DNA from: a virus | Virus record (IMG/VR): IMGVR_UViG_3300044846_000733 | Coordinates: 1 to 37,357 of that record | Direction: 5' to 3' (one strand) | DNA: 37,357 nucleotides | Shown here: positions 3,813 through 13,560 of the stretch, piece after piece | Numbering within the stretch: position 1 is the stretch's first letter | Layout: each line of letters starts with the position of its first letter | The notes under the pieces: model-generated | Told to the model about the DNA's origin: nothing | What the model saw: the letters and a program-made list of their open reading frames with translations, nothing else | The model's database searches: none | Program-made: the position numbers and the translations under genes

Positions 3813-3848
3813 GTGTATGTTGACCGCATAACGTCATACACCTAACAA
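3813..3848 (+). promoter_or_regulatory. Candidate promoter with flanking inverted repeat (operator) before the recombination module
   Basis: TTGACC at 3820-3825 and TAACAA at 3843-3848 are separated by 17 bases, as in a sigma-70 type promoter; the -10 match is weak. The -35 box is bracketed by a perfect 7-base inverted repeat: GTGTATG at 3813-3819 and CATACAC at 3835-3841. A repressor bound there would block RNA polymerase. The gene at 3862 follows after AGAGAAGGGGAA, a good ribosome binding site. The 57-base gap is one of the few real intergenic gaps in this compact region. Confidence 0.45.
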
Positions 3849-8152: not shown

Positions 8153-8550
8153 ATACCATCATCATCACGGGAAACGTGACGAAGGATCCCGAGATCCGTT
8201 ACACCAACAACCGGACCGCGATCTGCGTGTTCTCCGTTGCCACGTCATACGGCAAGGACGACAAGAAGCAGACCACGTTCCATGACGTGAAGGTTTTCGG
8301 TGACATGGCCGAGAACGTCGCAGCGTCGATCACCAAGGGTGTGCGTGTCACGGTCCACGGTCGTCTCGAGAAGTCAACGTACGAACGCAAGGACGGCGGC
8401 AAGGGTATGTCGGTTGACATTGTTGCCGAGTCGGTTGCCCTCGACGTGCGGTTCCGTCCTGCGTACGCAGACCAGACCGACAACACGATGAAGCAGGTGA
8501 AGCAGCAGTTCCCGAACGCGCAACTGCTCGATGAAGAACCTCCGTTCTGA
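8149..8550 (+). CDS. ssb: Single-stranded DNA-binding protein (OB fold)
   Basis: MNTIIITGNVTKDPEIRYTN starts a canonical bacterial-type SSB, continuing with TAICVFSVATSYG, TTFHDVKVFGDMAENV and KGVRVTVHGRLEKSTYERKDG. The OB-fold spans residues 1 to about 105. The acidic tail ends DEEPPF, close to the DDxPF-like tip through which SSBs recruit partner proteins. At 133 residues it is a little shorter than host SSBs. ATG 8149 follows AAAGGGGAG and overlaps the preceding stop. It would coat single strands made by the YqaJ nuclease and during replication. Confidence 0.92.
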   Translation: MNTIIITGNVTKDPEIRYTNNRTAICVFSVATSYGKDDKKQTTFHDVKVFGDMAENVAASITKGVRVTVHGRLEKSTYERKDGGKGMSVDIVAESVALDVRFRPAYADQTDNTMKQVKQQFPNAQLLDEEPPF

Positions 8551-10570: not shown

Positions 10571-10599
10571 TTGCAAACGTCTGACGGTTGGGGCATAAT
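10571..10599 (+). promoter_or_regulatory. Sigma-70-type promoter for the Gp88 cassette
   Basis: TTGCAA (10571-10576) and CATAAT (10594-10599) are separated by exactly 17 bases. The -10 box matches consensus at five of six positions and the -35 at four. Transcription would begin near 10606, about 40 bases before the ATG at 10645, which has a purine-rich AAGAAGGGG ahead of it. This is the best promoter match I see in the window. Confidence 0.65.
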
Positions 10600-10644
10600 T
10601 CCTAGGTGGTCGGCATCGGGTCGGCCAGGAAGAAGGGGTAAAGA

Positions 10645-11622
10645 ATGTCAACTATTACCAGGCGGTCAGCCCACGTCGGCACGGTCGCGCTATCGGACCG
10701 GCCCATTAGGGTGCGGATTGAGACACCGGCGGGGCCGTTGCAGCTTCATGCGGACTCTAAAACGGGGCCATCGGGTTACTGGGCGGAGGGTCGTCGGCCT
10801 GTCTCGATTGTCCCGAATGCTTTTGGCTTGCCATCGGGGCCGATGGAGATCGGCGGAACGTGTCCGCAATACTCGGTGAACGCTTGCCAGTCTTGTTACG
10901 CGGCACGCATGGAAGGCGGGCCGTTTGCGGCATTTTCCGACATGGTTTCGCGGAACCTGGCAACGCTCGAACGGCTGAAGGAATACGGGCAAGGGGCCGT
11001 GGTCGATGCGCTGACGGCGTTGGTGGATCGTTCCTACGCGCTGCAAGTGGCGGCGGGTGTCGCGTCTCCGTCGTTTCGGTGGTTGTCGTCGGGTGATTTG
11101 TTCGCGCCTTGGTTTGCGGCGGCGGTGCGGGAGGTGCAGCGGTCGCGGCCTTCGGTGACGTTTTGGGGCTACACGCGGTCGATCCGCTACCTAACTAACC
11201 TTTTCGGGCGGTCATCGTTGCCGAGCAACGCGCGGTGGTTTGTGTCGGTAGACGCTGACAACGTCGGCACGCATTCGGTTGCGGCGGCGCGGTACGGGTT
11301 GCCCGTGGCATACCTTGCGAAGGATCGGGGCGAGCTTGCGTTACTTCGGGCCGTCGTGGATTCGGTGCGGGGTGAGAAGGTCGCGGGGTTGGTTTGTCCC
11401 GCGTCGGGCGTATGGGCTGACGATGATTTAGGGCCGGCGTATGTTGTCGGCGCGGACGGTCGGCGGGCCTCGCTCGATCATGGGCCTACCGTGGGGGCGT
11501 GTGCAGCGTGTGCGGCGTGTCTCCCTGGCTCGCGGGTGCGGGACATTGCGTTTCTACGGCATGGCGGGGCGGGTACGGCGGCGACGTGGCAACGGCTCCA
11601 AGTGCGTCGGGGGGTGAAGTGA
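10645..11622 (+). CDS. Gp88-family (mycobacteriophage L5 gp88-like) cysteine-rich protein
   Basis: The 325 residues show the Gp88 pattern. An N-terminal KTGPSGYW and PNAFGLPSG precede TCPQYSVNACQSCYAARM (about 72-89), then RWLSSGDLF, VTFWGYTRSIRYL, and a C-terminal cysteine cluster GACAACAACLPGS with FLRHGG. A further VCPA lies before it. The spacing and the CYA motif recall iron-sulfur or radical-SAM-related phage proteins of the Gp37/Gp68 and Gp88 groups; activity is unknown for all of them. It is the first gene of a short GC-rich operon and its stop overlaps the next ATG. The GC-rich codon choice (GCG, CGG, GGG) is unlike the flanking modules. Confidence 0.72.
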   Translation: MSTITRRSAHVGTVALSDRPIRVRIETPAGPLQLHADSKTGPSGYWAEGRRPVSIVPNAFGLPSGPMEIGGTCPQYSVNACQSCYAARMEGGPFAAFSDMVSRNLATLERLKEYGQGAVVDALTALVDRSYALQVAAGVASPSFRWLSSGDLFAPWFAAAVREVQRSRPSVTFWGYTRSIRYLTNLFGRSSLPSNARWFVSVDADNVGTHSVAAARYGLPVAYLAKDRGELALLRAVVDSVRGEKVAGLVCPASGVWADDDLGPAYVVGADGRRASLDHGPTVGACAACAACLPGSRVRDIAFLRHGGAGTAATWQRLQVRRGVK

Positions 11623-11888
11623 TGCGGTGCCAGGTTTGCGGGGGTCGGGTGCATACGGGGGCGAGATGTCGCCATTTCGCGCCACGGCGGGCGGCTCGAC
11701 GTGTTCCGGCGGCGGTTGTCGTCGGGTTTCGTTGGGTTGTTGGGTTGGTTGGCGTGTTCGGCGCGGGTCGTGCATTCGACGCGGCCAACGACGGTGCGGG
11801 CAGTTGGTTCGGGGTTTTTGTTGGGTTGGGTTTCACGTTTGCGGCGGTCGTCTGGCCGTCGTCATCATCACAAGAAAGGAAGGGTTAG
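11622..11888 (+). CDS. Zinc-ribbon plus two-pass membrane protein, 88 aa
   Basis: ATG 11622 overlaps the Gp88 stop. The N-terminus MRCQVCGGRVHTGARCRHFA gives Cys-x2-Cys and Cys-x-His, a half zinc ribbon, followed by a basic stretch RRAARR. Two hydrophobic segments follow (AAVVVGFRWVVGLVGVFGAG and WFGVFVGLGFTFAAVVW) separated by FDAANDG. A cytoplasmic zinc ribbon tethered to the membrane by a hairpin is therefore predicted. No family is recognised. It is co-transcribed with the Gp88 gene. Confidence 0.6.
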   Translation: MRCQVCGGRVHTGARCRHFAPRRAARRVPAAVVVGFRWVVGLVGVFGAGRAFDAANDGAGSWFGVFVGLGFTFAAVVWPSSSSQERKG

Positions 11889-11890
11889 TT

Positions 11891-12316
11891 ATGTTGGCGG
11901 AATGTTTTAGGTGTGGGAAGGTGGCCGACGGTGTCGGTACTTGCCCACTTTGTGGGTCGTTTGCGTTTCATGCGCCGAATACGGGCGGCACGGCGGCTTA
12001 CGATTTGGGCGGGGCTGACAAGCTCGACGCGATCACGGCGGCGGACATCGTTTCGGCGGGTTTGTCGGTCACGGTGTCGCCAGAACTCAGCGCGATTTCG
12101 TATGAGTGGCACGGTAATGGGCCGGTGTTCGTGTTGGCATACGGGAAGGCGCGAGAGACGATCAAGGCCGTGAAGATTGAGACGGTCGGGGACGTGGTGC
12201 GGCTTGCGTTGGCGGACTGGCATACCTGCACGGGGTCGCCAATGTTGCCCCGCAAGGTTGGCAAGTATTCGGTCACGTTCTCGGGGTACTTCGACGCGGG
12301 GACGGTGACGGCGTGA
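11891..12316 (+). CDS. Zinc-ribbon protein, 141 aa, unknown function
   Basis: ATG 11891 begins two bases after the previous stop, with AAAGGAAGG upstream. The N-terminus MLAECFRCGKVADGVGTCPL then CGSF is a classic four-cysteine zinc ribbon (CxxC-x10-CxxC). The rest (about 40-141) is mixed alpha/beta, with AAYDLGGADKLDAITAADIV, ISYEWHGNGPVFVLAYGKA, TVGDVVRLALADW and KVGKYSVTFSGYF. It may bind nucleic acid or serve as an adaptor for Gp88. Codon use is GC-rich like the whole cassette. No named family is recognised. Confidence 0.65.
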   Translation: MLAECFRCGKVADGVGTCPLCGSFAFHAPNTGGTAAYDLGGADKLDAITAADIVSAGLSVTVSPELSAISYEWHGNGPVFVLAYGKARETIKAVKIETVGDVVRLALADWHTCTGSPMLPRKVGKYSVTFSGYFDAGTVTA

Positions 12317-12480
12317 AACGTGAGTGCGGGCATTGCGGCGCGTCTCCGGCGTGGTTCGGGTCGCGTGATACTTTCGACGGCTCGCGGGTGCCGTGTTGCC
12401 GTCTGTGTCGGGTGACGTGGGGTCAGCGGGTGCGGGGCGTGTGGCGGCGTTTCCAATACCGTCGGGCGGTGCGGCCGTGA
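12313..12480 (+). CDS. Zinc-finger-like basic microprotein, 55 aa
   Basis: GTG 12313 overlaps the preceding stop (GTGA) and the stop overlaps the next GTG. The sequence MKRECGHCGASPAWFGSRDT, then FDGSRVPCCRLCRVTW, gives CxxC and CCxxC pairs, a small zinc ribbon. The tail (GQRVRGVWRRFQYRRAVRP) is strongly basic. Charge and size suggest nucleic acid binding. The GTGA couplings on both sides support translation. Confidence 0.6.
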   Translation: MKRECGHCGASPAWFGSRDTFDGSRVPCCRLCRVTWGQRVRGVWRRFQYRRAVRP

Positions 12481-12671
12481 CGGCGGCGGAAGTGGTTGAG
12501 CTGCTCGGGCGGGTTGGGTCGCTTGATCTGACTTCTGATCGGGTGCCTATCTCGGTGCGGGTTACCGTGCATGACGTTCGGCAAGTATTCGGGAGGCGTG
12601 ACTACCTTGTCGAGCCGGTCGCGGGTCGGGGTCGGGCGTGGGTGTCGTCGGATCGGGTGCGGCTCGACTAA
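12477..12671 (+). CDS. Small protein, 64 aa, last gene of the Gp88 cassette
   Basis: GTG 12477 overlaps the previous stop. MTAAEVVELLGRVGSLDLTS then VPISVRVTVHDVRQVFGRRD and YLVEPVAGRGRAWVSSDRV predicts one helix followed by a beta-rich part. No cysteines are present, unlike its operon partners. No family is recognised. A strong terminator begins 30 bases downstream, so it closes the transcription unit. Confidence 0.6.
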   Translation: MTAAEVVELLGRVGSLDLTSDRVPISVRVTVHDVRQVFGRRDYLVEPVAGRGRAWVSSDRVRLD

Positions 12672-12700
12672 CTGAAACGTCATACCGCTAGCGGCATAGG

Positions 12701-12731
12701 GGCCGTCTCGCCTTCGGGTGGGGCGGCCTTT
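12701..12731 (+). terminator. Rho-independent terminator with UUCG tetraloop
   Basis: GGCCGTCTCGCC at 12701-12712 pairs over all 12 positions (three G-U) with GGTGGGGCGGCC at 12717-12728, closing a TTCG loop with a C-G pair, the exceptionally stable cUUCGg form. TTT follows. A small perfect palindrome CCGCTAGCGG precedes it at 12684-12693. It terminates the Gp88 cassette. Confidence 0.75.
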
Positions 12732-13560
12732 GTGCTGCACGGGGGCGAGCGGTGGCCGGCGACGTATGTCTACGGCGGGCGGGTGGCAATGCGGGTGAGA
12801 ACGTGACACGGAACGTAGGCGGGAATCCTGCGCGGGCGGGGCGGTTGCCGCCGGTGGGGGGGTCTGTCGCGCCGTATGGGGTGCGGGGGGAGGGTATTTC
12901 GGGCGGATACCTGCACCGCATGACAGGTTTTTACATATCGGATGTTATGGGCGGGCAGAAACGCGGCAGCCGGCACCTTCTCGACTGGGGGTCTGCCGAG
13001 GCGCGCCTGCGGGGGAGGGGGGTATTACTCCTTCCCGATATGTGTTGCTATTCCGCATCGTGGAATGGTTGAGAATGGTTCTCATTTGCAATTCGACCGT
13101 GCAACAATTTGGCACTCGCAGCGTCTGGCCTGTGGGTCGATCCAACCCGTTTTCTCTGCCGACAAGCCGCGTAGCGGCGCGTCAGCCCAAGCGAAGCGCG
13201 GGAGCCACTAGGTTGGTTGCAGGCACAGCTGTTTAGTCCCCCCCACGCTTTGTCACAGTTAGTGACCGGTGGCCGTGACCAAGAGTTTCAGCCGACACCG
13301 TTTTGTTACTTCATCCCCCTCGACGTATCTGCAAGTTTCCGTTCTTTGTCTCGGTACTAGGTTCGCTTGCAGGCGTTTGTGCATGGGAGGGCGGTCCCCG
13401 TTACCGGCCACTTGTACCCATCCCACTTCCCATGCTTTGTGAGTGGGGTGAGGGTCGTGCGTGCCTCGCCTGCTTCCCAGCGGTGAGGACTTGATCGTTT
13501 GCGTCGGCAAGATACCAGAGTCGTATTGTATGATTCCACCATCTTGAAGGGTTTTTTCTG
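12732..13560 (+). other. About 830 bases with no convincing gene, before the terminase
   Basis: Frames here are Gly/Arg/Pro-rich and unlike the neighbouring proteins. The first half has unusual G-tracts on the plus strand (12855-12861, 12882-12892, 13012-13022). Inverted repeats are GCCGC/GCGGC at 13166-13178 and GTCAC/GTGAC at 13252-13266, with a further GTGAC at 13275-13279. A Fur-like palindrome lies at 13070-13084. TGTATGAT at 13527-13534 could be a -10 region for the terminase. Position directly before TerL, with no TerS gene, makes a packaging site or replication origin plausible, but nothing proves either. Confidence 0.6.
13070..13084 (+). promoter_or_regulatory. Fur/Zur-like 15-base palindrome
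   Basis: TGAGAATGGTTCTCA has six-base arms TGAGAA/TTCTCA and matches the 7-1-7 Fur-family consensus (TGATAAT-n-ATTATCA) at 11 of 14 positions. Actinobacterial Zur sites have a similar form. It lies in non-coding DNA and no gene start lies close downstream, so a role in metal response is speculative. Confidence 0.3.

Follow-up and report, generated by a model that had tools for sequence, protein, structure and literature searches.

The 37,357-base uncultured virus record analyzed here (the window) carries five tightly packed plus-strand genes within positions 10571–12738. We read this unit as probably being an accessory (moron-like) operon that carries a non-canonical, radical-SAM-like iron–sulfur enzyme, Gp88, together with small genes that are exchanged between related phages. 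The coordinates of the operon and of the putative metal-binding motifs are given in Table 1.

Table 1. Features of the Gp88 operon (positions are those of the window).
Feature	Position	Strand	Description
Promoter TTGCAA-17-CATAAT	10571–10599	+	Same place, with −10 box CATAAT, in five relatives
Gp88-family protein (PF17338), 325 aa	10645–11622	+	Predicted non-canonical radical-SAM-like Fe-S protein
N-terminal three-Cys motif, Cys73-X7-Cys81-X2-Cys84	10861–10896	+	Loop after early barrel strand
C-terminal four-Cys set, Cys251-Pro ... Cys286-X2-Cys289-X2-Cys292	11395–11520	+	Candidate auxiliary cluster
sm1, 88 aa	11622–11888	+	Small membrane protein, half zinc ribbon; CxxC + C16, two hydrophobic segments
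sm2, 141 aa	11891–12316	+	N-terminal CX2C-X9-CX2C zinc ribbon + conserved uncharacterised domain
sm3, 55 aa	12313–12480	+	Cys-rich, variable slot; homologue only in L005/L023 (one contig)
sm4, 64 aa	12477–12671	+	Conserved, cysteine-free
Terminator hairpin	12691–12738	+	22-bp stem, UUCG loop, short U run at 3' side of stem

The operon was flanked on its 5' side by early genes (YqaJ-type recombinase, SSB, WhiB and HNH nuclease) and on its 3' side by late genes (large terminase TerL, portal and major head protein), which agrees with its earlier placement between the early and late modules. The large terminase was only ~27% identical to the best isolated phages, indicating that the isolated-phage collection compared holds no close cultured member of this lineage. 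A nucleotide search against isolated phages and a search of Rfam both returned no match. The host is probably actinobacterial, as suggested by the presence of WhiB and by base composition.

Both ends of the unit were conserved. A promoter of the form TTGNNA-17/18-CATAAT headed it in relatives L002, L003, L004, L005 and L007, with CATAAT invariant. The 17-spaced promoter of the preliminary description is present in the window, and the promoter was conserved in 6/6 phages compared. In the window, the Gp88 start lies 46 bases past the −10 box. In relatives, at least one small gene, often Cys-rich, intervenes between promoter and Gp88 (L002, 3367–3744; L003, to 8004; L004, to 712), which places their promoter further upstream; this gene is absent from the window and comes and goes among relatives. 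Aligning the 180 bases upstream of Gp88 at the DNA level had suggested that the promoter is not conserved, a result that was rejected given this more distant position. The terminator hairpin was the most stable 44-nt fold in the window (−35.3 kcal/mol; z = −7.0 for the 61-nt piece), and it was also found in L003, L004, L006, L007 and L008, where the sequences differ and the pairing is largely kept. The stem previously described as a stable UUCG terminator showed paired changes, and 90.7% of cells were paired compared to 50–62% in slid controls, across only four distinct sequences. Positions 10571–12738 are a genuine, well-delimited transcription unit, self-contained as it had been described.

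An open reading frame at 12752–13072 was discounted as a possible sixth gene; the corresponding stretch in relatives is conserved DNA with insertions and deletions that are not multiples of three. Non-triplet indels in the wider stretch 12798–13545 indicate conserved non-coding DNA. Within it, ~330 bases between the terminator and the large terminase gene (13190–13520) were nearly identical in five related phages. RNA folding of this segment was unremarkable on either strand (z ~0), and Rfam gave no match to it; as a guess, it might be a packaging or replication site. Separately, the 9-mer ACGTCATAC occurred 19 times with ≤1 mismatch, compared to 6.9 expected. Exact copies were located at 3831–3839, 8242–8250 and 12677–12685, among them copies ahead of the YqaJ gene and immediately preceding the operon terminator. 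CGTCAT words similar to this 9-mer were seen in the promoter region of relatives, and it could be a regulator site.

The operon also differed in composition from much of the genome. Its genes measured 62–69% G+C, compared to 54–62% for most other genes measured, which makes the ~74% of the preliminary description an overstatement. Its coding strand (10645–12671) was strongly G+T-rich (G3 ~0.5, C3 ~0.2), a bias that most of the phage's other genes do not share and that may reflect foreign origin or transcription-linked mutation. Four of the genes are under purifying selection, with dN/dS values of 0.10–0.22 for Gp88, 0.17–0.41 for sm1, 0.10–0.25 for sm2 and 0.02–0.25 for sm4; sm3, with its homologue in a single contig, was left out of these estimates. 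The four gene junctions were, in order, a TGATG with a 1-nt overlap, a 2-nt gap and two GTGA overlaps, and the ATGA/GTGA overlaps described earlier therefore apply to the last two junctions only.

The small genes were examined for the features previously attributed to them, namely three zinc-ribbon-like proteins, one of them attached to the membrane. The hydrophobic segments of sm1 fit the membrane attachment. Its ribbon is incomplete in the window; the sm1 proteins of L003, L004 and L007 continue for 18–19 further residues with a second CPSC, and this second half is absent here. The full ribbon of sm2 was invariant in five phages, and sm3 is Cys-rich, with CX2C and CCX2C. Pfam zinc-ribbon matches to sm2 and a weak match to sm3 all fell below cut-offs. 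A search of isolated phages for sm2 found none, and the gene was found only in this cassette. The third slot was empty in L004, L007 and L008 and held unrelated Cys-rich genes in L003 and L006, of which that of L003 matched Phage_zn_bind_8 above the cut-off. In L003 (9944–10285), the sm4 frame extends into a Cys-rich tail (CAACG...CRSCG...CECRECG) at the operon end, likely a gene fusion.

The preliminary description had proposed that Gp88 and the four small proteins form one functional system, and had held that absence of the partners beside other Gp88 genes would count against it. Such a multi-protein system would have Gp88 modify a substrate presented by sm1, sm2 or sm4, in counter-defence or superinfection exclusion, with sm1 acting at the membrane. 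In line with this, sm1, sm2 and sm4 accompanied Gp88 in all lineage contigs of sufficient length, the genes are tightly packed behind one promoter, and sm1 carries its two hydrophobic segments. Outside the lineage, however, the partners were absent. Using tblastn, no partner was found beside Gp88 in L009 and L027, even with a Gp88 65–68% identical to that of the window, nor in L010–L013, in ~80 uncultured-phage and mycobacteriophage contigs or in the isolated phage loci examined. Altogether, the four partners lay next to none of ~90 other Gp88 genes examined and were confined to the lineage contigs. Gp88 had other neighbors elsewhere, with ParB-like and Lsr2 genes in Streptomyces phages and DUF932 near Gp88 in 51/85 loci compared, many of them uncultured-phage contigs. 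The replaced or empty third slot in five relatives and the variable gene before Gp88 also argue against a fixed assembly, and the PADLOC library, which covers defence proteins and not anti-defence proteins, gave no match for the operon. We consider the multi-protein system unlikely, and our results lend no support to a new five-part system. Rather than encoding subunits of a Gp88 complex, the four small genes more likely share the promoter as independent cargo; Gp88 is the only product of the operon that is broadly conserved. A role in anti-defence or exclusion is no more than a possibility, compatible with the operon's variable, self-contained form.

Gp88 matched PF17338 with an E-value of 8e-24 (85.2 bits vs. 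a gathering cut-off of 24.4), and a profile comparison against a set of mycobacteriophage and Streptomyces-phage Gp88 proteins gave a probability of 99.9% (E 3e-32). By these sequence comparisons, Gp88 is a true PF17338 member, a new representative of a known and widespread family. The earlier suggestion of an undescribed function is fair for the Gp88 family, although the family as such was already known and is not peculiar to this phage. Literature searches on GP88, DUF5131 and the three-Cys-motif partner found no functional study in the library searched. Relatives of Gp88 were present in at least 548 viral stretches, and plasmids gave no Gp88 match at E 1e-5. A viral structure library names Gp88-family members in archaeal viruses (Nitrosopumilus spindle-shaped virus and Halogranum tailed virus 1). 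In a bacterial genome (L037), a Gp88-like motif set occurred within a minus-strand open frame of >700 residues, which may represent a fusion or an extended bacterial form.

The two iron–sulfur-like cysteine clusters noted earlier were borne out by the alignment. The three N-terminal cysteines, followed by Tyr/Phe-Ala, and the four C-terminal cysteines were retained in 45/45 aligned Gp88 proteins, down to ~23% identity. The N-terminal motif followed CX6-12CX2-3C in all 45, observed as CX6CX3C, CX7CX2C, CX6CX2C and CX12CX2C. The canonical CX3CX2C of radical SAM enzymes was absent from Gp88, the window protein having CX7CX2C. Some accepted radical SAM members have other Cys spacings, and the missing canonical motif lowers the claim of a radical SAM protein without excluding it.

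A structural model of Gp88 was built from the 45-row alignment (pLDDT 82.5, pTM 0.85), superseding an earlier nine-sequence model (pLDDT 65). The order of elements in the model, a strand, the Cys loop and then alternating helices and strands, resembles a partial beta/alpha barrel. A short strand at 59–61, assigned in the nine-sequence model and marked as extended in the 45-row model, precedes the Cys loop at 73–84. It is followed by a strand at 143–146 with SSGD (148–151), and by strands at 172–177, at 196–202 with D203 and N206 behind it, at 221–225 and at 248–250, the last leading into Cys251. Radical SAM enzymes have their cluster loop after strand 1, the motif contacting the SAM amino group after strand 2, and the ribose contacts after strand 4. 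With VIA-align, spore photoproduct lyase was the top match to the model at Z 8.5, a value little higher than the best that unmatched models usually reach. It was followed by lipoyl synthase (6.9), a viperin-like protein (6.7), NifB (6.4), Cfr (5.7), BlsE (5.7), AprD4 (5.6) and TsrM (5.2), with unrelated barrels interspersed at lower Z. Foldseek against the PDB returned nothing at E < 0.001 with either Gp88 model; against viral models it returned Gp88 proteins first and then a Gp37/Gp68-like protein (E 5e-6).

Profile searches gave a link by way of DUF5131. Many mycobacterial genomes encode proteins that the PF17338 profile scored (E 6e-6 to 8e-4), and by coordinates five of these hits fall within DUF5131 genes. 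A DUF5131 protein in turn reached E 1e-15 against TIGR04471 ('radical SAM mobile pair protein A'), a score under the curated cut-off. In the reciprocal direction, PF07505 (DUF5131) matched none of ten Gp88-bearing records, including the window, the TIGR04471 model did not find Gp88, and the 45-row Gp88 profile did not find DUF5131. An hhalign comparison of Gp88 with DUF5131 was partly motif-colinear and non-significant, and Gp88 itself had no match to the radical SAM families in Pfam or NCBIfam. Because the reciprocal searches were negative, the DUF5131/radical SAM link is a strong lead and not proof. We do not claim membership of Gp88 in the radical SAM superfamily.

The cysteines could also be read as structural. 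Gp88 would then be a zinc-stabilized TIM-barrel-like or nucleic-acid-binding protein with no redox function, both Cys sets would hold structural zinc, and the operon would be a set of small zinc proteins with nucleic acids or proteins of the host as their binding targets. The Cys-rich, zinc-ribbon types among the partners, the Phage_zn_bind_8 protein in the third slot of L003 and the non-canonical spacing in Gp88 are all consistent with such a reading. The arrangement of motifs in Gp88, on the other hand, is of the radical SAM type, with three Cys and an invariant Tyr-Ala after an early strand, (S/D)GD after the next and then SxDxxN. Radical SAM enzymes are also abundant among the structural neighbors, and a three-Cys zinc site would be unusual. 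We regard the zinc explanation as improbable. It is very unlikely that Gp88 keeps a radical-SAM fold only as a degenerate scaffold, with catalysis lost and a binding function in its place, as the variable, non-canonical Cys spacing might suggest, since seven cysteines and the SAM-site-like motifs kept to ~23% identity imply a selected metal site.

The preferred reading, an accessory operon with a radical-SAM-like Gp88, can be put into steps. Sited between the early and late modules, the operon would be transcribed under a promoter of its own, with its small-gene content swapped between related phages. Cys73, Cys81 and Cys84 of Gp88 would hold a [4Fe-4S] cluster that cleaves S-adenosylmethionine. 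Two motifs, (S/D)GD behind the next barrel strand and SxDxxN near the end of strand 196–202, would lie at the places where SAM is bound in radical SAM enzymes, and Cys251, Cys286, Cys289 and Cys292 would hold an auxiliary cluster. Gp88 could then start SAM-based radical chemistry on a substrate. A nucleic acid or nucleotide is our first guess for it, given that no solved fold comes closer than spore photoproduct lyase and that the Cys-rich partners look like adaptors for nucleic acids. These small proteins are probably cargo in their own right, and the operon may benefit the phage. A broader version, in which Gp88 is a virus-wide non-canonical radical SAM family with a three-Cys site and an auxiliary cluster, acts chemically on a nucleic acid, nucleotide or peptide of the infected cell or virus during infection, and serves here with zinc-ribbon adaptors in counter-defence, seems quite improbable to us. 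Should Gp88 prove to be a radical enzyme, it would rank among the commoner unexplained viral redox enzymes, and its seven conserved cysteines make its likely enzyme class directly testable. The operon also illustrates how a phage holds a fixed promoter–terminator frame while swapping small cargo genes.

Compared to known systems, Gp88 was closest to the PF17338 members of mycobacteriophages, Streptomyces phages and uncultured phages, with which it shares NAFGLPSG, C..C..CYA, (S/D)GD.F, W.YTR, SxDxxN and CP...C..C..C. It differs from the compact phage form in being ~85 residues longer (an N-terminal extension and insertions) and in its CX7CX2C motif, where the compact form has CX6CX3C; identity between them is ~23–28%. 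PF07505 DUF5131 (phage Gp37/Gp68) and TIGR04471 resemble Gp88 in motif order (CX6CX2CY, SDLF, LTKR, SVE); the invariant columns of the DUF5131 alignment do not include the C-terminal four-Cys set. Spore photoproduct lyase, a radical SAM DNA repair enzyme (PDB 4fhg), was the best solved fold match (rmsd 3.7 over 192 residues) at 9% identity, and it carries the canonical CX3CX2C that Gp88 lacks. The cassette as a whole resembles phage morons and accessory operons, a likeness read from sequence: it has its own promoter and terminator, a distinct base composition and a position between modules, and its exchangeable small genes (the third slot and the gene before Gp88) vary among close relatives.
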